Shown here: positions 52,192 through 64,000 of the stretch, one piece after another
How the letters are laid out: each line of letters opens with the position of its first letter
How positions within the stretch are numbered: position 1 is the stretch's first letter
From: Albidovulum sediminis
GTDB taxonomy: Bacteria; Pseudomonadota; Alphaproteobacteria; Rhodobacterales; Rhodobacteraceae
Length of the DNA stretch: 64,000 bases
Assembly (NCBI RefSeq): GCF_025380365.1
Contig: NZ_JAOCQF010000001.1
Location: forward strand, 1,538,245-1,602,244
Reading direction: 5' to 3'
The notes under the pieces: generated by a model
The model's input: only the letters and a program-made list of their open reading frames with translations
Database searches by the model: none
What the model was told of the DNA's origin: nothing
Program-made: the position numbers and the translations under genes

Positions 52192-53022
52192 TCAGATCCG
52201 GCCTTCCGCCCGCCACTCCTCCAGCTTTTCGCGGCTGACCTCGAAATGCATGCTGTCCTCGCGGCCGAAGCCCGCGCCCCAGATCCAGCCCGCCTCGCGG
52301 AAGAAATCGGCAAGGATGGTCAGGCCAAGCTGCGTCTGGCCATCGCCCAGCGTGTCGAGATGCCCGTCGATGTTGAGGTCGATCGACAGGCCGAACGCAT
52401 GGGACGACAGCGAGGTGTCGGACCCGCGCACGAAGCGCACGCAGAGCGAGCCTGCGGTGTTGATGCGGTCATAAAGGTCCTGGTCCACCTGGCGGATACG
52501 CTCGAACACCTCGCCCAGGGATTCGGCGGCGGGCCTGAGCATCTTGACCTGGACGGGTCCCACCTGCTCGGTCACCAGAAGCTCTGCCAGCGTGGGGTTC
52601 GTCATCGGCTGGCACTGTTCGTTGTAGTCCTCGCGCGGGTGGCCGAACATGTCGATCAGGAAATCGGTCGTCGGCGCGTGCAGCGTCGTGTTCAGTTCGC
52701 GCCGCCCCGCGACCAGCACGACCTGCGCATAGGAATCGATGATGCTGTTCGGGCCGGAATTGTCGACGAAGCCCTGGTCGTCGAGCGGAAGCGTGGCCAT
52801 CGGGCCGGCGCCGATTCGCGCCACCTCGCCGCGCAGCCCCTCGACCGTGGTGCGCAGGGCTTCCACCTGTTCGCGCAGCATCTCGATCTCGATCCGCGCG
52901 CCGCTGTCGACGGCAGGCCCGCCGAATTCGTCCTCGGACCCGAGCACCAGGGGGGTGACGTACCAGAGAACGGGGGCAAGCAGGATCGCGACCGCGATCA
53001 GGATGGCCGGCAACAGACGCAT
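52192..53022 (-). CDS. Membrane-anchored M15 (VanY/ChiX-like) peptidase
   Basis: A 276-residue protein with one N-terminal membrane helix (about 3-24) and a coiled-coil-like segment (EIEMLREQVEALRTTVEGLR, about 45-64). A C-terminal metallopeptidase domain follows. The M15 zinc motif SSHAFGLSIDLN (His and Asp) is near residues 210-221 and DSMHFE (second His) near 256-261. M15_4 enzymes cleave L-Ala-D-Glu or D-Ala-D-Ala links in peptidoglycan. The anchor places it in the periplasm. It lies next to a T6SS locus and is divergent from an OmpA-domain gene; a role in wall opening for T6SS is conceivable only. Confidence 0.85.
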   Translation of the reverse strand: MRLLPAILIAVAILLAPVLWYVTPLVLGSEDEFGGPAVDSGARIEIEMLREQVEALRTTVEGLRGEVARIGAGPMATLPLDDQGFVDNSGPNSIIDSYAQVVLVAGRRELNTTLHAPTTDFLIDMFGHPREDYNEQCQPMTNPTLAELLVTEQVGPVQVKMLRPAAESLGEVFERIRQVDQDLYDRINTAGSLCVRFVRGSDTSLSSHAFGLSIDLNIDGHLDTLGDGQTQLGLTILADFFREAGWIWGAGFGREDSMHFEVSREKLEEWRAEGRI

Positions 53023-53202
53023 GATGAACTCTCTTGCAATGCCGCTTGCGGGAAGCGGCCTGATGATTCTGAATAAGCCGTCGATACAAGTCAACAAAGG
53101 CGCGATCGCGTCATGGAGGGGACGCAAATTCGTTGTCGCCTTGGCGCCCGTGGTATAGAGTTTTGGGCGAGTACCCCTGACATATCGGGAAAGAACAAGT
53201 CG

Positions 53203-53775
53203 ATGTTTAGAAACGCGCTCCTTGCCTCAGGCCTGACGCTGGCACTTTCCGGCACCTGCCTTCCCGCTTTTGCCCAGTCCACCGACGGCGAACTGACGGC
53301 CGAGCAGATCTCCGATCTTTTTGCCAAGCAGCAGAAGACCCGCGGCCTCGTGCTGGCACCCTCCACCGCAGCCACGACCGTGACCGACACCGCCGTGGCC
53401 GCGACGGCGACCGAGCCCGCCTATCAGCCCGTGGCCGCCGATGCCCAGGTCAACCTGAGCATCTCGTTCGACTACAATTCCTCGGCCCTGCGCGACGACC
53501 AGAAACCGCGGCTCGCCACCATGTGCGAGGCGATGAAATCCATCGACGTCAGCCGCTTCCAGGTGATCGGCCACACCGATTCCTCGGGCAGCGCGGACTA
53601 CAACCAGTCACTGTCGGAAGCGCGCGCCGAGGCGGTGATGCAGTATCTGGTCAGCGACTGCGGCATCAGTTCGGACCGCCTGATGGCGATCGGCGCGGGC
53701 GAGACGGCCCCGCTCGATACGGCGAACCCGGCGGCCGACGTGAACCGGCGTGTCGAATTCCAGGCCCTGGGCTGA
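53203..53775 (+). CDS. OmpA-family peptidoglycan-associated protein
   Basis: A 190-residue secreted protein: signal peptide MFRNALLASGLTLALSGTCL ending PAFA-QS near residue 24, a low-complexity Thr/Ala linker (about 45-70), then an OmpA C-like domain with NLSISFDYNSSALRDDQ, VIGHTDSSGSADYN and NRRVEF. No lipobox is clear. It binds peptidoglycan by the OmpA fold. The start at 53203 has only a weak site (GGGAAAG). It precedes the T6SS kinase by 37 bases on the same strand. Confidence 0.85.
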   Translation: MFRNALLASGLTLALSGTCLPAFAQSTDGELTAEQISDLFAKQQKTRGLVLAPSTAATTVTDTAVAATATEPAYQPVAADAQVNLSISFDYNSSALRDDQKPRLATMCEAMKSIDVSRFQVIGHTDSSGSADYNQSLSEARAEAVMQYLVSDCGISSDRLMAIGAGETAPLDTANPAADVNRRVEFQALG

Positions 53776-53812: not shown

Positions 53813-55975
53813 ATGAACGACTCACGCCCAGGCGACGCCTTCCGGCCCGGGGACCTGCTGAACAACACCTACCGGATCGAGGCCCTGCTGGGGCGCGGTG
53901 GCACCTCCGAGGTCTACCGCGCCCGCTCCGAGATCTCGGGCCGGGTCGTGGCGCTCAAGGCGCTCCGGTCGGAGTTTTCGCGCAACGAGGACTTCCTGCT
54001 GCTGATGACGCGGGAAGAAGAAATGCGCGACATCCGCCACGATGCGGTGGTGCGCTATTCCGACAACCAGCGCACACCCGAGGGCACGGTCTATCTGGTG
54101 ATGGACTATGTCGACGGGCCGGGGCTTGACCACAAGCTGAAGGAAGGCGGCCTGTCGGCGGAGGATCTTCTGGTCATCGGCGCCCGCGTGGCCGAGGGGC
54201 TTCAGGCCGCCCATTCAAAGAACATCGTCCACCGTGACCTGTCGCCCGACAACATCATCCTGAGGAACGGCAACCCGGCCGAGGCCGTCATCATCGACTT
54301 CGGCATCGCCAAGGACACCAACCCCGGCGCGGCGACGATCGTGGGCAACGAGTTCGCCGGCAAGTATGCCTATGCCGCCCCCGAACAGCTCAGCGGCCGG
54401 ACCGATGCCCGGTCGGACCTCTATTCGCTGGGCGCGCTGCTGCTTGCGGGCTTCCGCGGCCGCCCGCCGAACGCCGGGTCGAACCCGATGGAGGTCCTGC
54501 AGAAGAAGGGCGAGCCGCTGGATACTGAGGGCGTGCCCGAACCGCTCAAGTCGCTGATCGGGAAGCTGTCGCACCCCGATCCGGCGCAGCGGTTCCAGAG
54601 CGCGGCCGAGGTTCTGGCGGCGATCCGCGGCGGGCCGGCGGCGGCCCCTGCGGGGCTGCCCGCGGGACTGGAAGACCGGACGGTCATCATGCCCGGCAAG
54701 GCCGCGGCCGCAAAGCCGGGCGCCGAAGCAACGAAGGCCAAGGCGGCCGGCAAGGCCGAGGCCGCGGCGGGGAAAAGCCGCCTGCCGCTCGTCCTCACGC
54801 TGCTCGTGCTGCTGGCTGGCGGGGGCGGCGCCGGGGCCTACTTCTCCGGCATGTTCGGACCTTCGCTGCCGCTGGCCGAACCCTACACGTTCCGCGTGAC
54901 CAAGGCCGAGGGCGGCGTCCCCGAGGCGGTGGGCTATGCCCCTTCGGAGGCGGTCCAGCGCACGCTGTCGGAAGATATCGCGCGGCTGAGCGGCACGGCG
55001 GAACTCTCGCTTGCCCGCGGAGAGATCGGCGAAGGCTGGGGGGGCGATGTCAGCCTGCTCATGTCGACGCTGGCCACGCTGGACGAATGGTCGCTGTCCG
55101 TCGACGGCATGACCTTCACCGCCACCGGATCGACCGCGGATGCGGCCCGCCAGGACAGCGTGACCGCGCTTCTCGGCACCACGCTTCCGGGCGGGATGAG
55201 CGGGACGGCAGACATCGCGCTGAAGTCGCAGCTTCTGGCCGCCACCGCCTTGCAGCCGATCCTGGACCAGATCGCCGACTGCGGGCCGCTGGTGCAGCAA
55301 TCGGTCCCGTCCGAGGGCTACGCCGAGGCCGACCGGATCGTCGTCGCCGGGCGCCTGGCCGACAACGGATCGCGCATCCGCCTGTTCGACGCCCTGCGCG
55401 CGGTGGCGGGCCCGCGCGAGGTCGTGATCGACGCCGAGATCCTGAACCCCGCGCTCTGCCTGATAGAGACCCGCCTGCCCGCCGCGCCGGCCGGCGGCTT
55501 CGACATTTCCTTCGGCTTCGGTGACAGCGCCGACCCGAACCCGTCGGGGCGCTATTTCGTGGGCGAGAACCCGGTGATCGACGTGGATATCCCCGCCGAG
55601 GTGACGGACGGCTATCTTTATGTCTCCGTCCTCGACGTCTCGGGCAACGTTTTCCACCTGCTGCCGAACCAGACGCGGCCCGACAACTCCGTCGCGGCCT
55701 TGCGGAGTGGCCAGCCGGGCGCGGTTCCGGTGCGTGTCGCCTATGGCCTGACCGAGGCGCAGGGGACATCGAAACTGGCCTTCACCGTCGACGCAAGCTC
55801 GCTCGGCAAGAGCAAGGTGATCGCGCTTTACGCGAAGGCGCCGCTGTTCGCCACGATGCGCGAGATTTCCGAACCCGCCGCCGATTATGCGCAGGCGCTC
55901 GCCGATCTGGTGGCCTCCGGGACGACCACGGTCACCTCGATCGACAGCCGGATCCTGACCACCGCGCAGCCCTGA
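53813..55975 (+). CDS. ppkA: PpkA-like serine/threonine kinase of the T6SS
   Basis: A 720-residue transmembrane kinase. The kinase domain (about 20-275) has the Gly loop GRGGTSEVY, ATP-binding Lys49 (VALKAL), catalytic loop HRDLSPDN (140-147), DFG at 162-164 and APE at 189-191. The juxtamembrane part contains EDRTVIMP around Thr290. One helix lies at about 324-345. The periplasmic part ends in a DUF4384-like domain (NPSGRYFVGENPVIDVDIPA, about 545-640). In other species PpkA activates T6SS through Thr phosphorylation and PppA reverses it. A PP2C gene lies 20 bases away, convergent. Confidence 0.92.
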   Translation: MNDSRPGDAFRPGDLLNNTYRIEALLGRGGTSEVYRARSEISGRVVALKALRSEFSRNEDFLLLMTREEEMRDIRHDAVVRYSDNQRTPEGTVYLVMDYVDGPGLDHKLKEGGLSAEDLLVIGARVAEGLQAAHSKNIVHRDLSPDNIILRNGNPAEAVIIDFGIAKDTNPGAATIVGNEFAGKYAYAAPEQLSGRTDARSDLYSLGALLLAGFRGRPPNAGSNPMEVLQKKGEPLDTEGVPEPLKSLIGKLSHPDPAQRFQSAAEVLAAIRGGPAAAPAGLPAGLEDRTVIMPGKAAAAKPGAEATKAKAAGKAEAAAGKSRLPLVLTLLVLLAGGGGAGAYFSGMFGPSLPLAEPYTFRVTKAEGGVPEAVGYAPSEAVQRTLSEDIARLSGTAELSLARGEIGEGWGGDVSLLMSTLATLDEWSLSVDGMTFTATGSTADAARQDSVTALLGTTLPGGMSGTADIALKSQLLAATALQPILDQIADCGPLVQQSVPSEGYAEADRIVVAGRLADNGSRIRLFDALRAVAGPREVVIDAEILNPALCLIETRLPAAPAGGFDISFGFGDSADPNPSGRYFVGENPVIDVDIPAEVTDGYLYVSVLDVSGNVFHLLPNQTRPDNSVAALRSGQPGAVPVRVAYGLTEAQGTSKLAFTVDASSLGKSKVIALYAKAPLFATMREISEPAADYAQALADLVASGTTTVTSIDSRILTTAQP

Positions 55976-55994: not shown

Positions 55995-56717
55995 TCAGAC
56001 GGTGTCGACCACGATGATCGAGATGTTGTCTGCCCCGCCCCCGTCGAGCGCGATCTGAAGAAGCGTTTCGGCGACCGTCTCGATCGGGTCGCGCGCAAGG
56101 ACCCGGCGGATCATGTCGGAGGTGGCGTATTTGTTCAGCCCGTCCGAACAGAGCAGGAAACGGTCGCCGGGAAGCACCTCGCCCCGGATCTTGTCCAGCT
56201 CAAGCTCGTCGCCCACGCCTACCGCGCGGGTGATCGCGTTCGACTGCGGATGCGCGTCGGCCTCGTCCCAGGTCATCTGGCCGGACAGGACGAATTCGGC
56301 GACCAGCGAATGATCGGTCGTCAGCACCTCGAGCCGTTCGTCACGCAGGCGGTAAAGCCGGCTGTCCCCGGCCCAGAAGCTCAGGAAATGACCGTTGGCA
56401 AGCATCAGCGTCACCACAGTCGCGCCGATGGTGGTCACGCCGCGCCGGTCAGCCTCTTGCCGGATGATGGCGTGCGCCCGCTGGATCGCGCCGCGCAGTT
56501 CATGCATCTTCTCGCGCGGCTCAAGCCCCGGCGCCAGCATCGCGATGGCCTCGATCACGGCCTGGCTCGCGAAGTCGCCCCCCTCGTGCCCGCCCATGCC
56601 GTCCGCGACCACCCAGATGTCCTGCTCGGGCATGGCGAGGATGGAATCCTCGTTCATCTTGCGCACACGCCCGACATGGGTCGTGGCGCTGTAGCGGACG
56701 TGAAAGCCAGAACTCAT
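55995..56717 (-). CDS. pppA: PP2C-type protein phosphatase of the T6SS (PppA-like)
   Basis: A 240-residue metal-dependent phosphatase. Motifs are RVRKMNEDSIL, WVVADGMGGHEGGDFASQ (metal Asp), GATVVTLMLANG, FWAGDSRLYRL and GADNISIIVV. It is the expected partner of the PpkA-like kinase. The start at 56717 overlaps the tagF stop by ATGA; the alternative upstream extension would run through tagF in another frame. It sits downstream of tssK-tssL-tssM-tagF and probably shares their transcript. Confidence 0.92.
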   Translation of the reverse strand: MSSGFHVRYSATTHVGRVRKMNEDSILAMPEQDIWVVADGMGGHEGGDFASQAVIEAIAMLAPGLEPREKMHELRGAIQRAHAIIRQEADRRGVTTIGATVVTLMLANGHFLSFWAGDSRLYRLRDERLEVLTTDHSLVAEFVLSGQMTWDEADAHPQSNAITRAVGVGDELELDKIRGEVLPGDRFLLCSDGLNKYATSDMIRRVLARDPIETVAETLLQIALDGGGADNISIIVVDTV

Positions 56718-57400
56718 GCGGCCTCCCTTTTCTGCCAGATGGCGGCGTTCGGATCGAACAGCCCGACCGTCGCCGCCTCGTCCGGCATCCCTTCCAGGAT
56801 CATCAGTCGCGTGCCACCCTCGCCCTGCGCGCTCCACACGCTCGGCGCGCGGAAATCGCGGCCCAGACAGCGGGCGGCCAGATGCGGCAGACCGCCCTCG
56901 GGCCCGGCGTCGCTGACCAGCGCACGCCCCGGCGCCATGACCACCTGCCCCGGCGCCGGCGCGGACGGCGCGGCGATCGCGGCCAGCCGTTCGACCAGGC
57001 CCTCGCGCGGCAGGTCGTCCAGCGCCTCAAGCGCGAGCGTTTCGAGCGCGTGAAAGCAGCCCTCCGCCGCGAAATGGGTGGCGACGGGGTCCACCCCCTC
57101 TGTGAGCGTGGCGGCAAGCGTCAGCGGGAACTGCCGGCCCACGCGGTCGACCGAGGGCATCATCACGCCCAGTGCCGCCTCTGCCCCCGCCAGCCCCGGC
57201 GCCAGCGCGAAGCGCCAGATCGGTGCCGTCATGTAGCAGTCCTGCCAGCCCTCCCCCAGCCGGTCGCGCCCGGCCAGGATCCCGCGCTGCAGCCAGTCGT
57301 CCCAGGCCGCGACAAAGCCCGGCGCCATGCCGAAGCGGAAGAAATCCCCCAGCGCGGGGATCTTTCCGAAGGCACCGAAGGCACCGGACGCAGCCGCCAT
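56714..57400 (-). CDS. tagF: T6SS accessory protein TagF
   Basis: A 228-residue protein of the TagF family: N-terminal GAFGKIPALGDFFRFGMAPG and IWRFALAPGLAGAEAALGVM, then VDRVGRQFPLTLAATL. TagF is a post-translational repressor of some T6SS, working with the Thr phosphorylation pathway. The start at 57400 shares one base with the tssM stop (TGATG). An ATG in a longer reading would lie inside tssM in another frame. Confidence 0.9.
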   Translation of the reverse strand: MAAASGAFGAFGKIPALGDFFRFGMAPGFVAAWDDWLQRGILAGRDRLGEGWQDCYMTAPIWRFALAPGLAGAEAALGVMMPSVDRVGRQFPLTLAATLTEGVDPVATHFAAEGCFHALETLALEALDDLPREGLVERLAAIAAPSAPAPGQVVMAPGRALVSDAGPEGGLPHLAARCLGRDFRAPSVWSAQGEGGTRLMILEGMPDEAATVGLFDPNAAIWQKREAA

Positions 57401-60400
57401 CAGAACGACTTCGGGCAGGAGAACTTGGACAGGGCCTTCAGCTTGAACGGGTTGAAGACCGAGCCTGACTGAAGCTGGAAGATGGAGATCCGCCCGCCGA
57501 CGCTGAAGATCACCCGCAGCCGGTCCGCCGCCGGTGTGTCGCGCACGTTCGCCGCGTCCAGAAGCCGGAACCAGGCCCAAGGCCCGTCCATGCCCATCTG
57601 GTTTTCGGCATTCTTCACCTGCGGCTCCAGCGCGACCCGCGCCAGCCCCACCGATCCGGGCCATGTCACCGCCGTCGGCGTCGCGCCGCGGTGGTTGAAG
57701 ACGATGTCGGTCCCGTCGATGGTCAGCGTCACCTGCTTGGACTTTTCGTCCAGCGCCTCGGGCGTGACCTGGAAGCTGATCGCAGGCACCGGTCCGGCGG
57801 CGAAGAAGGCGTCGCGAATCTCGGCCGCGTACTGGAACTGCTCCAGCACGCTGGCCGAAATGCCCAGATCGGTATCGCCCACCTTCTTCCACTGCCAGGG
57901 CCTGACCGACATGTCGACATGCGGCAGCAGGTTCTCGTTGAAGAAGGCGTCGATCTGTCCGCCCGGCCCGAAGAGCTTGGAGAAGTCCGCGATGGCGATG
58001 TCGGCCGCGGCGCCGCGCGCGAACGGATAGCGGTCGGTCGTGGCCTGTTCGCAGAACGGCAGGACCGCGGCCTGCCAGCGCGCGTTGATCGCCGCCCGCG
58101 TGCCGTCGACGGTGATGCCCGACGACCCCGTGGCGATCTGCGTGGCCCAACGCTGCATCGGCCCCGGCAGGCGCGCCGCGGCCTGCGTGAACTGCTGAAG
58201 CGCAGTCGGTTCCCCGGCGATGCCGGGTGTCGCGAGCCCGCCCGAGAACGACATCTTGTTCAGCTCCTGGTAGACGAGCGTCAGCGTCTGCATCAGGTCA
58301 TCGAGTTGCGAGGGTTTGCCCTCGGCCCGCGCCACCAGGTCGTTCAGCCAGGCGAAGCGGTCGACCACATACTGCCCCGGCTCCTTCGGCGGTTCGGCAT
58401 TGGTTCCGTTCACGAGGCTCGAACTGGCCAGCGCGTTGACGAAGACCTGCGCCTGCACGCTCAGGTTCGACTGGATCTCCATCGCCCCGACACTCGACAC
58501 GCCCTCGCTCAGCCCCGTCGCATCCGCCAGGCCGCGCTTTTCCGTCAAGCGGGTTTCGGCCGCGATCGCGGTCAGCACGTTGGCAATGGGCGAGGTCGGG
58601 CCGGAAAGCACGTTCGTCACCTCGACCGCATGGCTCAGCGACTGCATCGGGATGATGTCGAGGTCCGACAGGATCCCGTCATAGCGTTCGATGAAGTCGT
58701 TGTAGTAGAGGTCCAGCACGTCGCGGCTGATCGACACCAATGCGGCCTCGCTTTGCGCCGCCTCGGCGGTCGGCCCGAGGACCCAGCTTTCGTTCTGGAT
58801 CCGCTGCGCCACGCCCAGCGCCTCGGCGAGGAAGACGTTGTTGAAGCCGTTGTAGGTGAAGATGCCCTCGACCCCATCGGTCAGGGGCTTGCCGGAGTTG
58901 CGCTGCATCACCCGGCCGATGGCCGGCCCGCCGACGTCGGACAGGCGCCATGCGGGCAGCGCCTTCGCCGCCGGGCTGGAGATGATGCCGTTGTAGACAC
59001 GCTGGGCAATCGACATTTCGGTCAGGATGCCCCGCACCTGGTCGATCAGCGGCCCGTTCAGCGGGATCTGCTGCATCGGCTGGGACAGCATCGCCTGAAG
59101 GTGCGATTCCAGATCGGCCCGCAGCCCGTCGCGTTCCGGGCCCTTGTAGTAGGCACCCCAGACCGCCCGCATCCACTCCTTGACCAGATCCGGGCTGAGG
59201 TGGTCCCCCTGGCCCAGCATCAGATAGATCTTCAGCGACTCGTAGAGGAAGTCGGGGTTGTTCATGTTGGCCTGCATCTGCTCCTCAAGGCTCAGAAGCA
59301 GGCGCGGCAGGAAGTGGGTGTTGAGCGCGGAGCGATAGGTCTGCTGCGCCTGCGTCCCGATCACCTCGCCCTGGTAAAGACCCCAGGTCAGCCGCCCCTC
59401 CGGCTCCGGATCGCCCAGCGCGGGATTGCCGGGCATGTCGCGCAGGACGTTCAGCGCGGGCACGACCGAGGGCAGGTCGGTGTCGCCGATGGGGCTTCCG
59501 GGGATGGTCTGGGACATCTGCTGGAACGTGTCCGCCAGCGTCGAGGCGTCGGCGATCATGTCGCGGTTGCCAAGGAAGCTGCGCGTCCAGAGCCCGAAGG
59601 CCGCTATGGTCAGAAGCGTCATCGCGGTGATGGCGATGCGCTTGGTCCAGCGATAGCGCCGTTCGACCTTGTCGTCGGCCGACACAAGCCCCGCCTCGCG
59701 GAAGATCACGTTGTCGAAAAGACGGGTCAGGAAGAAGGACCGCCCCGTACCGCGGCCCGAGCCGATGGCCTGGCGCCCGATCCCGAAGGTTCGCGCCATG
59801 TTCATCATCAGCCGGTCGATCGGCGTGCCTTCCTGCGTGCCCGAGGCGAAATAGACCCCGCGCAGCATGTGGCGCTGTTCGAACCGGTTGTCCTGGAAGA
59901 CCTGCGCGAGGAAGTCGCGCGCCACCTGCCGGACCGAGGCCACCTGGCCAGGGAAGGCCGCGATCAGACTGCGGCGCTGGTGGTCCGTCTCGGCCTGGAG
60001 CTTTTCGAGCGACTGCGCGTTCAGCCGTTGCAGCAGCAGCGAGAACTCCTGGTCGAAGTTGGCGATGGGCGACACCTCGCCCTTCGACTTCTCAAGCGGG
60101 AAGGTGAAGCCCCAGACCTGTTCGCGATCCTCCTTGCCGAGCGTGTCGTAGAACTCGGTAAAGCCCGCGATCAGGTCGGCCTTGGTGAAGAGCACGTAGA
60201 CGGGGAAGCGCACCCCCAGCTTCTCGCGCAGCTCGTGCAGGCGGCGGCGCACGGCGTTGGCGTGGCCCTTCTGGGTCGTCTCGTCCTGCATCGACAGGTC
60301 GGAAAGCGAGATGGCGATGATCGCGCCGTTGATCGGCTGGCGCTTGCGGTGCTTCTTGAGAAGCGACAGGAACCCCAGCCAGGCGCCGCTGTCGGCCTCC

Positions 60401-60972
60401 GCATCGCTTTCCTGCGTGGTGTAGCGGCCGGCGGTGTCGATCATCACCGCGTTGTCGGTGAACCACCAGTCGCAGTTGCGGGTGCCGCCGACGCCGCCGA
60501 TGGCCGACTTGCCCATCGCCTCGGCCAGCGGGAACTGCAGGCCGGAATTGACGATCGCGGTGGTCTTGCCCGCGCCGGGCGGGCCGATCATGACGTACCA
60601 GGGCAATTCGTACAGGTGCCGGCGCCCCAGCTTGGACTTGCGCAGGGCGCCCAGCGCCTCTTTCATCTTGTCGCGCAGTTCGGTCAGTTCCTGCGCGGTC
60701 ATGTCGGGCGCCGCCTCGACCGCGGTCAGGTCCTCTTCCATCTTGCGGTTGCGGCGGCGCCGGATGACCCAGCGCAGCAGCATGATCAGGAAAGCCAGCG
60801 CCACGACGATGGCGATGGCGACGACCCGCGCCGTGACCGTGTCGAGCGGGCGCCATTCCCCCCAGTGGAACAGCGGGCCGAAGTACCACAGACATGCCCC
60901 GATGATCAGCGCGAGCAGCAGGATCACGAAGTTCAGCGTGCCGAGGATGTGGCGTATTCTGCGAAAGATCAT
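57400..60972 (-). CDS. tssM: T6SS membrane protein TssM (IcmF)
   Basis: A 1190-residue inner-membrane protein of the T6SS membrane complex. Two helices at about 13-33 and 47-69, then the cytoplasmic NTPase-like domain with Walker A GPPGAGKTT (130-138) and VMIDTAGRYT. A third helix lies near 445-465 (AITAMTLLTIAAFGLW), followed by a large periplasmic domain ending in the C-terminal IcmF region. Length matches the family. Its ATG overlaps the tssL stop (TAATG). Walker A is complete, so nucleotide binding is likely preserved. Confidence 0.95.
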   Translation of the reverse strand: MIFRRIRHILGTLNFVILLLALIIGACLWYFGPLFHWGEWRPLDTVTARVVAIAIVVALAFLIMLLRWVIRRRRNRKMEEDLTAVEAAPDMTAQELTELRDKMKEALGALRKSKLGRRHLYELPWYVMIGPPGAGKTTAIVNSGLQFPLAEAMGKSAIGGVGGTRNCDWWFTDNAVMIDTAGRYTTQESDAEADSGAWLGFLSLLKKHRKRQPINGAIIAISLSDLSMQDETTQKGHANAVRRRLHELREKLGVRFPVYVLFTKADLIAGFTEFYDTLGKEDREQVWGFTFPLEKSKGEVSPIANFDQEFSLLLQRLNAQSLEKLQAETDHQRRSLIAAFPGQVASVRQVARDFLAQVFQDNRFEQRHMLRGVYFASGTQEGTPIDRLMMNMARTFGIGRQAIGSGRGTGRSFFLTRLFDNVIFREAGLVSADDKVERRYRWTKRIAITAMTLLTIAAFGLWTRSFLGNRDMIADASTLADTFQQMSQTIPGSPIGDTDLPSVVPALNVLRDMPGNPALGDPEPEGRLTWGLYQGEVIGTQAQQTYRSALNTHFLPRLLLSLEEQMQANMNNPDFLYESLKIYLMLGQGDHLSPDLVKEWMRAVWGAYYKGPERDGLRADLESHLQAMLSQPMQQIPLNGPLIDQVRGILTEMSIAQRVYNGIISSPAAKALPAWRLSDVGGPAIGRVMQRNSGKPLTDGVEGIFTYNGFNNVFLAEALGVAQRIQNESWVLGPTAEAAQSEAALVSISRDVLDLYYNDFIERYDGILSDLDIIPMQSLSHAVEVTNVLSGPTSPIANVLTAIAAETRLTEKRGLADATGLSEGVSSVGAMEIQSNLSVQAQVFVNALASSSLVNGTNAEPPKEPGQYVVDRFAWLNDLVARAEGKPSQLDDLMQTLTLVYQELNKMSFSGGLATPGIAGEPTALQQFTQAAARLPGPMQRWATQIATGSSGITVDGTRAAINARWQAAVLPFCEQATTDRYPFARGAAADIAIADFSKLFGPGGQIDAFFNENLLPHVDMSVRPWQWKKVGDTDLGISASVLEQFQYAAEIRDAFFAAGPVPAISFQVTPEALDEKSKQVTLTIDGTDIVFNHRGATPTAVTWPGSVGLARVALEPQVKNAENQMGMDGPWAWFRLLDAANVRDTPAADRLRVIFSVGGRISIFQLQSGSVFNPFKLKALSKFSCPKSF

Positions 60973-62543
60973 TATCCGTCAGCCTTCACCAGCAGGACCT
61001 CGATGCGGCGGTTCTTGGCCCGCCCCTCTTTGGTGTCGTTGGATTCGATGGGTTCCTTGTCCGCCCGGCCCTCGGCCGTCATCCGCGCCGTGTCAGTCAG
61101 GCTTTGGGCCATGACTTTCATCACGCTTTCGGCGCGGGCCAGCGACAGGTGCATGTTCGACGGGAACCGGGAGGACTTGATCGGCACGTTGTCCGAATGG
61201 CCGACGACGATGATCGGCCCCTTGGAATCGTTCAGCGCCTCGGCCACGCGTTGCAGCTTGACCAGGAATTCTTCCTTCACCTGGTCGGAGCCCGAGCCGA
61301 ACATGCCCGCGCCCGCGATGCGCACGGTCACCACGTTGCCCTTCTCGATCACCGTCACCAGCCCTTCCTCGATCTCGGGCTTGAGGAATTCCGCCACCTT
61401 GACGGATTCGCTCTCGGGCGCAGGCGGTGGGGGCGGCGGCGGCGGCGCGCGGCGCAGCAGTTCGGGCACGACTGAGGATTCGAGCGCCGACAACTGGCCA
61501 ATCAGCCGCTCGGAACGCACGCCGAGCGCGTAGGACAGCCCGGCATAGCCAAGCCCCATGATTACCGTGGCGACGCCCGCCGCGATCCAGACCGCCTTCC
61601 AGGCGGACAGCGGCTTGTGCGGCATGTCGAGCCCCGCCCAGTGGGGCGAGAGGTCGCGTTCCACCGGGCCACGCTGGCCGCGGATGATCCGGGCCAGGCC
61701 GTTGCGGATCTGCAGGTGCTTGTCGGTGCCGCCCTGTTCGACGCGCAACCGCCCCTCGAAGCCCAGCGACAGGCACATGTAGAGGAATTCGAGCATGTCG
61801 ATGTTCGGACCCGGCGCCTGTTCCAGCCGCGCCAGCAGGTCGTAGAAGCGGTCGCCGCCCACCGTTTCGCGGTGGAAGGTGGCGACCATCGACTGCACCG
61901 CCCAGGACGACTGCCCGCCCCAGGGCGTGTTCAGCACCACGTCGTCGAGTGTGGCGCAAAGCGCGTAGCGCGCGACCTTGACCGTCTGCGCCTCGATCCC
62001 GGCCTGAAGCGCGCGGTTCTCGAAGGCGCGCACCTCGGCGATCACGCTCTGGCGCAGCTTGTCGGCGTCCATGTGCTGGGCGCGGTTGCGGATGCGCCCG
62101 ATCAGCGAAAACAACGTCGCGGCGCAGGCGTTGAGCGTGTTGAGCCCGGTCATCGACAGGGCCATCGCCGCCTCTCCGTCCGCGTCGGGACGCGGGCCGG
62201 GTGCAGCGGCGGGCTGTGCATGCTGGGGCACGCCGTAGGACATCGGATCGGCCATCGCGTCCTGCCCAGGTGCCGCGGCCTGCGGGGGCTGCGGCTGGCC
62301 CGGATAGGCGCCCTGCGGGGGATAGCCAGGTTGCGGCGGATAGCCCGGCGCAGGGGGGTAGCCGGCCTGTGGCGGGTAGCCGGGCGGGGGGGGATAGCCC
62401 GGCTGCGGCGGATAGCCCGGTTGCGGCGGATAGCCCGGCGGTGTCGGTGCGGCACCGCCCGCCGGCCGGCGGCCGCCGGGGTTCGGCCGGATCACCGTCC
62501 GTTCGTTGTCGTTGGGTTCGGCAAAGGGATCCTTGTTCGACAT
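60972..62543 (-). CDS. tssL: T6SS protein TssL with N-terminal Pro-rich tail and C-terminal OmpA domain
   Basis: A 523-residue evolved TssL. Residues 1-110 are a disordered tail. It contains ERTVIRP with Thr16 (14-19), then eight hexad repeats of the PGYPPQ type (36-83). The DotU domain occupies about 130-310 and the membrane helix about 318-341. A poly-Pro stretch (368-376) precedes an OmpA peptidoglycan-binding domain (about 395-520) with VVGHSDNVPI and NRRIEVLLV. TssL, TssM and TssJ make the trans-envelope complex. The stop overlaps tssM start. Confidence 0.95.
   Translation of the reverse strand: MSNKDPFAEPNDNERTVIRPNPGGRRPAGGAAPTPPGYPPQPGYPPQPGYPPPPGYPPQAGYPPAPGYPPQPGYPPQGAYPGQPQPPQAAAPGQDAMADPMSYGVPQHAQPAAAPGPRPDADGEAAMALSMTGLNTLNACAATLFSLIGRIRNRAQHMDADKLRQSVIAEVRAFENRALQAGIEAQTVKVARYALCATLDDVVLNTPWGGQSSWAVQSMVATFHRETVGGDRFYDLLARLEQAPGPNIDMLEFLYMCLSLGFEGRLRVEQGGTDKHLQIRNGLARIIRGQRGPVERDLSPHWAGLDMPHKPLSAWKAVWIAAGVATVIMGLGYAGLSYALGVRSERLIGQLSALESSVVPELLRRAPPPPPPPPAPESESVKVAEFLKPEIEEGLVTVIEKGNVVTVRIAGAGMFGSGSDQVKEEFLVKLQRVAEALNDSKGPIIVVGHSDNVPIKSSRFPSNMHLSLARAESVMKVMAQSLTDTARMTAEGRADKEPIESNDTKEGRAKNRRIEVLLVKADG
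62295..62438 (-). repeat. Tandem 18-base coding repeats in tssL (PGYPPQ hexads)
   Basis: Eight imperfect 18-base units encode residues 36-83 of TssL, with consensus PGYPPQ and changes at units 3-5 and 8. Such repeats change length easily by slippage. The region is low-complexity and the tail is likely unstructured. Confidence 0.8.
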
Positions 62544-62561: not shown

Positions 62562-63899
62562 TCAGCCCTGACGGATCGCCCAAAGCTCCATCGAGAGCCC
62601 CGGATACTCGCCCGACACATGCACCGCGATCCCGCCCGAGGTGGTCATCTTGCCCCAGTATGCGCTTTCGCCGTCCAGTTCGAAATAGACCACGCCCGCG
62701 TGATAGGGGATCTGGCGCGGCGCCACCGGCAGCGGGCGCAGCGTGATCCCCGGCAGGGCGGAGTTCACCAGTTGCCGGATCTCCTCGACCGGGCCGATCT
62801 TCGCATGGCCGGAGAAATGCCGCCGGATCGTCTCGGCCGGGACATCCGCCTTGACCGCCAGCACGAAGCCCGCGCGGTTGATCAGCTTGCGGTCGGCGAT
62901 GACGCCGACGCTGATGCCGTACTTGCGCGGATCGAGCGGGATCGCCACCGCCGTCTGCTCGATGACCGAGGAGAGGTACTGCCTCAGCGTGCGGATCACC
63001 GGGTTGAAGGTCGAGGTCAGCTCGCCATGCCGGTAGGCCGGAAACTCCGGCGGGTGCTTTTCGCCCGCCATGAACGACGCCAGCTCCCCGGCCAGCGCCA
63101 CGCATTCGCGGTAGGCGCGTTCAGGGTGGATGTTCTCGATCGAGAGCATGTGGCGGAAGACCGGCAGCGCCCGGTTCACCACGGTCAGCAGGAGGAAGTC
63201 GGAGACATCCGCAACCCCCTTCGCCCCGCCTTCCGAGAGCCGCCCCGCAAGCGCCACCATCCGATGCGCCAGAAGCCCCTCGATCTCGCGCAGGAAATCG
63301 TTGAGCGGGGGCGCCGCGCGCACGTCGATGGCCGAGGCGATGAATCCCTTGTCCAGCACGATCTCGCGATCCGACCGCACCTCGATGATGCGCGCGACCG
63401 GGATCACCAGCCGGTCGGCGAGGTCATCGACCGCCAGCGCGAACGAGAGGCGCAGCTTGGCCACGCCGACGGTGGCGGCCTTGCGGTCGCGCCCCATCGA
63501 GTCCATCACCTCGACCTCCGCGGGCTTGTAGCGGCTGGCGGACTGGTCTGCGCCGGACAGGTCCACCTCGATCGCGCCGGCGCGGCGGGACGGGACGGTC
63601 AGGTAGACGACGCAGTCCTTCACCGACTCGGGCACCTCGAGCGCGACGGGATGATCCTCGACCTGCGGCACGCGGAAGATCGCGCCATCGGGCGTGATGC
63701 CCGAACAGGTTCGGATCGCGAACTTGCCGATCTTGAGAAGCTCGTCATCGATCTCAAGCGTCGAGCAGCCCCAGACATAGGGCAGGACGCGCCGCGCAAG
63801 ACCGGACACCAAGGCCTCGGCATACCGGTCGGACTGCTGGAAATGATGCGGCTGAAGGAACAGGCCTTCGGTCCACAGAACCTTGCTTTCCCAGGACAA
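62562..63899 (-). CDS. tssK: T6SS baseplate protein TssK
   Basis: A 445-residue baseplate component that connects the baseplate to the TssL/TssM membrane complex. Family motifs are VLWTEGLFLQPHHFQQSDRY near the N-terminus, FLLLTVVNRALP in the middle and a C-terminal LRPLPVAPRQIPYHAGVVYFEL (parts). The start is TTG at 63899 supported by GGGGAGA about seven bases upstream; no ATG lies in a suitable place. The stop is 19 bases from the tssL start. Confidence 0.92.
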   Translation of the reverse strand: MSWESKVLWTEGLFLQPHHFQQSDRYAEALVSGLARRVLPYVWGCSTLEIDDELLKIGKFAIRTCSGITPDGAIFRVPQVEDHPVALEVPESVKDCVVYLTVPSRRAGAIEVDLSGADQSASRYKPAEVEVMDSMGRDRKAATVGVAKLRLSFALAVDDLADRLVIPVARIIEVRSDREIVLDKGFIASAIDVRAAPPLNDFLREIEGLLAHRMVALAGRLSEGGAKGVADVSDFLLLTVVNRALPVFRHMLSIENIHPERAYRECVALAGELASFMAGEKHPPEFPAYRHGELTSTFNPVIRTLRQYLSSVIEQTAVAIPLDPRKYGISVGVIADRKLINRAGFVLAVKADVPAETIRRHFSGHAKIGPVEEIRQLVNSALPGITLRPLPVAPRQIPYHAGVVYFELDGESAYWGKMTTSGGIAVHVSGEYPGLSMELWAIRQG

Positions 63900-63962: not shown

Positions 63963-64000
63963 CTATTTCAGCCGGTCCAGCTGTTCCTGATAGGCGCGCG
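63963..64000 (-). CDS. C-terminal end of a further gene (probably tssJ)
   Basis: The last 11 codons and a TAG stop read RAYQEQLDRLK, 63 bases upstream of the tssK start on the same strand. tssJ, the outer-membrane lipoprotein, is usual before tssK, so this is my guess. Too little is visible to name it. Confidence 0.35.
   Translation of the reverse strand, partial: RAYQEQLDRLK

Follow-up and report, generated by a model that had tools for sequence, protein, structure and literature searches.

A threonine motif shared by TssL, the kinase PpkA and Fha points to a candidate phosphorylation switch in a type VI secretion locus of Albidovulum sediminis

The type VI secretion system (T6SS) locus of Albidovulum sediminis codes for a TssL with an ERTVIRP motif in its N-terminal tail, a Hanks-type kinase, PpkA, with a matching EDRTVIMP motif in its juxtamembrane linker, and the only FHA protein of the genome, Fha, which has a third similar threonine. 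The reading that we consider the most probable, and hold with reasonable though far from complete confidence, is a T6SS threonine-phosphorylation switch in which PpkA would phosphorylate TssL at Thr16 (T16), within a cytoplasmic tail predicted to be disordered, and itself at Thr290 (T290), within the juxtamembrane linker; Fha would dock with the R31/S47 pocket of its FHA domain on the resulting pThr-[VI]-[VI] sites of both proteins, and the phosphatase PppA would take the phosphates off again. Bound to PpkA, Fha would be kept at the membrane close to its substrates; bound to TssL, it would be brought, and the baseplate with it, to the TssLM complex in the membrane. The phosphorylation, the binding, the order of events and the part played by PppA are what we infer from the sequences. 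The TssL half of this switch would extend a pathway shown experimentally in Agrobacterium, and the kinase half is suggested by conservation, by T6SS specificity and by data from Acidovorax citrulli, with the mycobacterial PknB-FhaA pair as a precedent. New here are the wide distribution of the motif and its presence on the kinase itself, the general scheme being already known from a few bacteria.

The window, i.e., the whole 64,000-nucleotide stretch that was analyzed (G000:C11:1538245-1602244), comes from a 4.29-Mb genome, and its relevant features are collected in Table 1. TssL, which begins with MSNKDPFAEPNDNERTVIRPNPGGRRP, is of the long form, with a DotU domain and a C-terminal OmpA domain that exceed curated cutoffs; its TIGR03349 and TIGR03350 matches in the profile search are both above cutoff. 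PpkA has the makeup of a T6SS kinase, namely, a kinase domain with HRD and DFG motifs both readable in the translation, a membrane helix predicted from hydropathy only and a locus shared with PppA, TagF and TssM; no PpkA-specific model is among its profile matches. The neighbors of ppkA code for an OmpA-like and an M15-peptidase-like protein, named after relatives in Ruegeria, Parasedimentitalea and Leisingera, and because the same order is repeated in the annotation of these three genera, the two genes may belong to the module. Outside the window, a single 1349-aa frame (L002:9258-13307, minus strand) codes for a fused sheath protein with VipA and VipB domains, between which lie many acidic EDTSTDDALAALRxAAPEA-like repeats; a long sheath protein is also annotated there in three plasmid relatives.

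Table 1. Positions in the window of the T6SS genes and motifs discussed in the text
Feature	Positions	Strand	Evidence and remarks
M15-peptidase-like protein	52192-53127		neighbor beside ppkA
OmpA-like protein	53113-53775		neighbor beside ppkA
PpkA, Hanks-type Ser/Thr kinase, predicted membrane helix, 720 aa	53813..55975	+	PF00069 6.7e-36, residues 20-267
EDRTVIMP, PpkA juxtamembrane linker, residues 287-294	54671..54694	+	translation, linker table; T290 codon 54680-54682
PppA, PP2C-type phosphatase	55995..56720	-	PF13672 2.4e-13; Stp1 model NF033484 7.7e-61, below its cutoff
TagF	56714..57400	-	PF09867 1.8e-39; TIGR03373 above cutoff
TssM (IcmF)	57400..60972	-	TIGR03348 above cutoff
TssL, long form (DotU + OmpA domains), 523 aa	60972..62543	-	PF09850 2.3e-65, PF00691 7.6e-14
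TssL N-terminal tail, residues 1-132, predicted disordered, Pro/Gly/Tyr repeat	62148..62543	-	AlphaFold2 pLDDT
Tandem 18-bp repeat in the TssL tail	62313-62439		about 7 copies
ERTVIRP, TssL residues 14-20	62484..62504	-	translation; T16 codon 62496-62498
TssK	62562..63899	-	TIGR03353 above cutoff
fha/tagH 3' end, RAYQEQLDRLK*	63963..64000	-	window edge cuts gene; full gene L002:4208-5857, minus strand, 549 aa

A preliminary description of this DNA had noted ERTVIRP with Thr16 in a disordered tail of TssL and EDRTVIMP with Thr290 just before the membrane helix of PpkA, a protein with no other relationship to TssL, and translation bears out both motifs, at residues 14 to 20 and 287 to 294, respectively. 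The coordinates that it gave for the former, 62487-62504, cover residues 14 to 19; the full motif reaches 62484. The PpkA motif lies in the linker between the kinase domain and the helix that hydropathy predicts near residue 324, i.e., from about residue 268 onward. The predicted disorder agrees with an AlphaFold2 model built from 6 sequences (mean pLDDT, 64.8), in which 106 of the 132 tail residues have a pLDDT of <50; the alignment behind it (A2) took 5 loci from a contig scan by a pattern that included the motif itself. Because its pattern held the motif, that scan was not used for counts and served only for names (25 of its 80 loci were read) and for the structure alignment.

For the counts, TssL was located by domain and not by motif, using TIGR03350 in 149 genomes of the same family and PF09850 across the phylum, where 90 of 348 genomes had a match. 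From part of the listed places, 140 stretches of up to 20 kb were fetched (the family list supplied 40 and the phylum list 100); 133 of them contained a TssL, to which our own locus was added, and 7 did not. With our own included, 76 loci have a kinase, 93 an FHA domain and 90 the Fha C-terminal domain; the group labels of sampled loci (Rhodobacterales, Pseudomonas-like, enterobacterial) are inferred, in part from named relatives. The exact (E/D)(R/K)TVIxP motif occurs in 18 of the 33 other TssLs of the family. Among those of our own type (same family, DotU score of at least 250), T[VI][VI] is kept at the site by all 21 and the exact motif by 18; conservation across TssL orthologs accompanied by PpkA had been set beforehand as the test of the claim, and these counts bring no refutation. 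The phylum sample seldom has the exact motif (3 of 100), and there related forms such as DRTVMIPTPG, DRTQFMPRPGG, DATIIKPRPG, DRTFIRPNP and LPTVVEL are common.

Plasmid replicates, taken as the first three of 499 records and matched through the TssL core (residues 129 onward) and not the motif, bear comparable sites on TssL, PpkA and Fha alike: Ruegeria conchae has DKTVIRP in TssL and DATIIVP in PpkA, Parasedimentitalea psychrophila EKTVIRP and EATVIAV, and Leisingera aquaemixtae DKTVIKP and DATIIVP, each with QTMI..NNPLKF in Fha. Further afield, Pseudomonas species other than P. aeruginosa contribute four named loci in which TssL reads DDRTQFMPRPGG and PpkA contains a related T-L-V-R-P. Five TssL tails (L059, L165, L167, L168 and L171) carry two tandem motifs (e.g., DKTVFGG ... 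DRTVIGG); the same five genomes code for FHA proteins with RTM[IM]G..NNPLKF (L270, L274, L273, L265 and L267), and Gly at +3 is common to this Fha site and to the second tandem TssL motif.

T16, P20 and P22 do not vary in a hand-picked 12-row TssL alignment (A1; eight rows from the family, ours included, and four from the rest of the phylum), in which identity to our TssL is 80% over residues 12 to 25, 15% over residues 26 to 130, 59% over DotU and 54% over OmpA. Gaps in this alignment suggest that an expansion of the 18-bp repeat, which encodes PGYPPQ-like units in our tail, is absent from the 11 other rows. The conservation of PNPGGR past the threonine leaves room for an extra binding partner, so that the whole DPFAEPDD..TVIRPNPGGR stretch might instead be a peptide on which another T6SS part, such as TssK, TssM, TagF or the baseplate, docks independently of phosphate. 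Beyond the high identity of residues 12 to 25 among these chosen rows, this alternative draws on two loci, L075 and L076, whose TssLs, which we take to be Burkholderia-like, have GGFVPPNPGG, i.e., the frame of the motif without its threonine, PpkA being nonetheless present. We consider it improbable: the PpkA stretch lacks both DPFAEP and PGGR and has the Thr core alone in common with TssL, T16 itself is among the invariant residues and the strict motif is missing from all 32 tails without a kinase.

The motif in TssL goes with the kinase. Among the fetched stretches alone, T[VILM][VILMF] is found in 59 of the 76 tails with a kinase and 13 of the 58 without. Motif-but-no-kinase cases were followed up in 17 genomes: a kinase lies 14 to 35 kb away on the same contig in 10, on another contig in 4 (G037, G087, G118 and G122) and elsewhere in the genome in 3 (G267, G274 and G300). 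In a separate check, an FHA domain is present in all of 17 genomes, mostly motif bearing, that were chosen because the fetched stretch showed no Fha or kinase, or as extras. After these checks, 19 loci were relabeled by hand as kinase positive, including L166, L169 and L170, because each of their genomes has a second TssL about 14 kb away and a kinase is present in the stretch fetched around that one, and 7 were dropped as ambiguous at contig ends. The broad T-x-hydrophobic motif is then present in 83 of 95 TssLs with a kinase within about 35 kb versus 7 of 32 without, and a stricter form in 65 of 95 versus 4 of 32. Tails with a kinase have a median length of 64 residues and those without one 46; within the first 45 residues only, the broad motif is found in 82 of 95 versus 6 of 32. 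The Fisher p-values for kinase and motif are small in tests that ignore phylogeny, the loci being related. On the TssL tree, kinase presence changes in just 7 places; an independent-pairs test with the 3 well-supported pairs that it offers (7 if weak branches are counted) is underpowered and not significant. Co-occurrence across the sample, along with the invariance of T16, is in line with what the preliminary description expected of motif and kinase.

The stronger rule that a kinase implies a TssL motif was rejected, the broad motif being absent from the TssL of 12 of the 95 kinase-linked systems (L068, L075, L080, L093, L095, L096, L105, L106, L107, L110, L119 and L163), 8 of which have tails of only about 16 to 22 residues. 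Because these 12 lack it, the TssL, PpkA and Fha sites look partly interchangeable. The motif also tracks the FHA pocket, which a regular expression scored as intact in 74 of 76 loci with a kinase and 4 of 14 without. By eye, two of the kinase-less loci scored as intact (L108 and L147) are artifacts and two scored as lost (L115 and L117) seem intact, so these offset each other and the total stays at 4 of 14. The broad TssL motif accompanies the pocket in 76 of 81 cases and occurs in 2 of 12 without it. The two truly intact ones among the four kinase-less loci scored as intact, L077 and L148, have the TssL motif and kinases elsewhere in their genomes; L115 and L117, whose pockets seem intact by eye, lack the motif, which counts against the switch. 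In eight loci with no kinase within about 35 kb (L099, L102, L103, L104, L112, L116, L118 and L130), the TagH FHA domain is without its Arg/Ser pocket, which suggests that it has taken on a changed role there.

On the kinase, the strict T[VIL][VIL]xP form is present in 12 of 20 scored linkers of T6SS kinases from the family and a looser form in 14, the linker sites reading, e.g., DATVIVP, DRTVIAP and DQTVIMP. Among 11 control Hanks kinases the strict form is absent (Fisher p=0.0014), and one has a looser TVI distant from its kinase domain. These controls are the second kinase of our own genome, in which the Hanks kinase cutoff is exceeded only by PpkA and by an open frame of 977 aa (870 aa read) on contig C17, and 10 short stretches from family genomes without an above-cutoff TIGR03350 match, drawn from 17 places over the kinase cutoff in 14 of 49 such genomes. 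As 33 of these 49 are without any Hanks kinase match, many genomes of the family do not have such a kinase. In the whole sample, where 47 of the 76 kinases could be scored, having both a detected helix and a linker of sufficient length, the strict form occurs in 19 of the 47, and several kinases with no detected membrane helix lack the linker motif yet keep one in their TssL; the PpkA site is therefore not universal.

Chance resemblance between low-complexity tails could be entertained, the TssL tail being Pro/Gly rich and a match of 5 residues short, had the counts been otherwise; we regard it as very remote and reject it, for shuffles, control stretches, the 21 of 21 conservation and the rarity of the motif in the genome all contradict it. 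T[VIL][VIL]xP is found in 37 of the 95 kinase-linked TssL tails, our own TssL clade supplying 17 of these, versus a mean of 0.52 and a maximum of 4 in 1000 shuffles, and in none of the 32 tails without a kinase; the 19 of 47 PpkA linkers compare with a shuffled mean of 1.06 and a maximum of 5. Per 10,000 residues, this amounts to 54.6 in kinase-linked TssL tails and 54.2 in PpkA linkers, compared with 2.74 for TssL outside the tail, 1.13 for TssM, 0 for PppA, 2.28 for TagF, 2.48 for kinase domains and 0.65 for the part of Fha that follows the FHA domain, an enrichment of about 20-fold or more over these six T6SS control stretches. In the 4.29-Mb genome, the RTVIxP DNA pattern occurs 6 times and the reversed pattern 0 times; three of the six places look like real genes, their frames judged by eye, namely, TssL, PpkA and a regulator that we named DeoR-like by eye, in which the motif is mid-chain.

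The reader of the switch would be Fha. The window holds the last 12 codons of its gene, stop included, adjoining TssK; the full protein is an Fha/TagH, with an FHA domain (PF00498, residues 28 to 95) containing the pThr-binding Arg and Ser, the T6SS_FHA_C domain (PF20232) and a TIGR03354 match above cutoff. Its phosphothreonine-pocket residues, taken from the sequence, are R31 and S47. One of 5 candidates scored, it is the sole FHA match of the whole genome; a PDB search returned general FHA-domain chains only. No other FHA protein being encoded in the genome, this product of the locus is the only FHA candidate for the "same FHA protein" earlier proposed to dock on both sites. With one FHA protein and one T6SS kinase in the genome, the PpkA/Fha wiring is close to unambiguous.

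The preliminary description missed a third similar threonine, T417, in the C-terminal domain of Fha (QTMIGAGGNNPLKF; context, NQTMIGAGGNNPLKF), and many PpkA systems carry only some of the three sites. The position equivalent to T417 reads QTMI(Q/R)PAENNPLKF in the four named Pseudomonas loci, and judged by position, T417 is probably the known Fha phosphosite Thr362 of P. aeruginosa, a match that uses the distance from the C terminus and what we take to be the length of P. aeruginosa Fha1. Where the TssL tail is Agrobacterium-like (LPT[IV]VEL; four of the fetched loci, L132, L137, L140 and L145), the Fha C-terminal anchor is missing or there is no C-terminal hit. The notion that kinase-less Fha proteins have lost their threonine was rejected, the residue being kept in 6 of 11 such systems, which also counts against the switch. 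So does the residue at Thr+3, the usual FHA specificity position, which differs among the three sites (R, M and G).

These differences at +3, set beside hydrophobic +1 and +2 residues common to all three sites, are what a substrate consensus only would leave: PpkA would recognize T-[VI]-[VI], T290 would be autoregulatory and Fha would dock only on TssL or be a substrate itself. Fha is indeed a substrate in P. aeruginosa, Serratia and A. citrulli, the phosphosites being given as Thr362 of Fha1 in P. aeruginosa (PMC5995506) and T640 in A. citrulli (PMC12607579). Two results reported for the latter species in PMC12607579 speak against it, in that Fha foci depend on active PpkA and not on Fha T640 and that kinase-dead PpkA pulls down less Fha, although the authors explain the weaker pull-down by catalytic residues that themselves stabilize the complex. 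The tracking of the FHA pocket by the motif also speaks against it, with kinase and pocket confounded. We give this alternative perhaps a one-in-several standing, well behind the switch.

For the TssL half of the switch, the closest parallel is Agrobacterium tumefaciens, where TssL is phosphorylated at Thr14 in a PpkA-dependent manner and Fha binds the phosphopeptide (Lin et al. 2014, PMC3953482). The preliminary description had quoted this precedent correctly; the site there reads DLPpTVVEI and not ERTVIRP. Both systems have a kinase of the locus, a conserved threonine in the cytoplasmic N-terminal tail of TssL (T14 there, T16 here), hydrophobic +1 and +2 residues (TVV there, TVI here) and an FHA protein with equivalent Arg and Ser (R30/S46 there, R31/S47 here); R30A/S46A abolish phosphopeptide binding (PMC3953482). 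The affinities, 0.5 to 2.2 mM, are weak and count against the switch. The two differ in the context of the site and in the C-terminal threonine of Fha, which is present here and said to be missing there, and the cited portion of PMC3953482 describes no kinase site. It gives the TssL site as conserved in Agrobacterium and Rhizobium and not in distant TssLs, with TssL a possible target elsewhere too; in Vibrio alginolyticus TssL is also reported as a PpkA substrate (PMC5995506).

With P. aeruginosa, Serratia and Acidovorax, our locus shares the PpkA, PppA, TagF and Fha set, and differs in that Fha is the named target there and matching TssL and PpkA sites are found here. According to a 2023 review (PMC10482370), each bacterium phosphorylates its own specific target, Fha in some and TssL in Agrobacterium, and PpkA autophosphorylation falls on a conserved serine and not a threonine, which speaks against our reading of T290. 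For the kinase half, the precedent is mycobacterial PknB, whose juxtamembrane pThr is bound by FhaA (described in PMC12077195). Common to both are a membrane Hanks kinase with a threonine in its juxtamembrane linker, which as part of the strict motif is found here in 12 of 20 family T6SS kinases, 0 of 11 controls and only 19 of 47 linkers of the whole sample, and an FHA protein whose docking is predicted here; the mycobacterial pair serves cell division and not secretion. In the open-licence papers searched, we found nothing joining PpkA, juxtamembrane and type VI secretion or PpkA, T362 and Fha1, nor the written-out motif strings.

A more detailed order of events, in which a single linear motif would govern the entire switch, is tentative: autophosphorylated PpkA could be the first landing site of Fha, through pT290, followed by handover to pT16, with pT417 competing for or cross-linking FHA domains. 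If the T6SS scaffold lands first on PpkA in this way, it would be understandable that Fha foci in A. citrulli depend on the active kinase and not on Fha phosphorylation.

The earlier proposal that both threonines are phosphorylated and docked by the same Fha thus appears plausible and in part supported, and we widen it to a third site, T417 of Fha, and to other genera. That TssL, PpkA and Fha have a motif in common, and that it is rare in the absence of the kinase or the pocket, suggests a single pathway whose phosphosites can stand in for one another. The recruitment of Fha by PpkA is called intriguing in the A. citrulli study of 2025 (PMC12607579), and T290 would offer a single-residue entry to the question of how PpkA recruits Fha.
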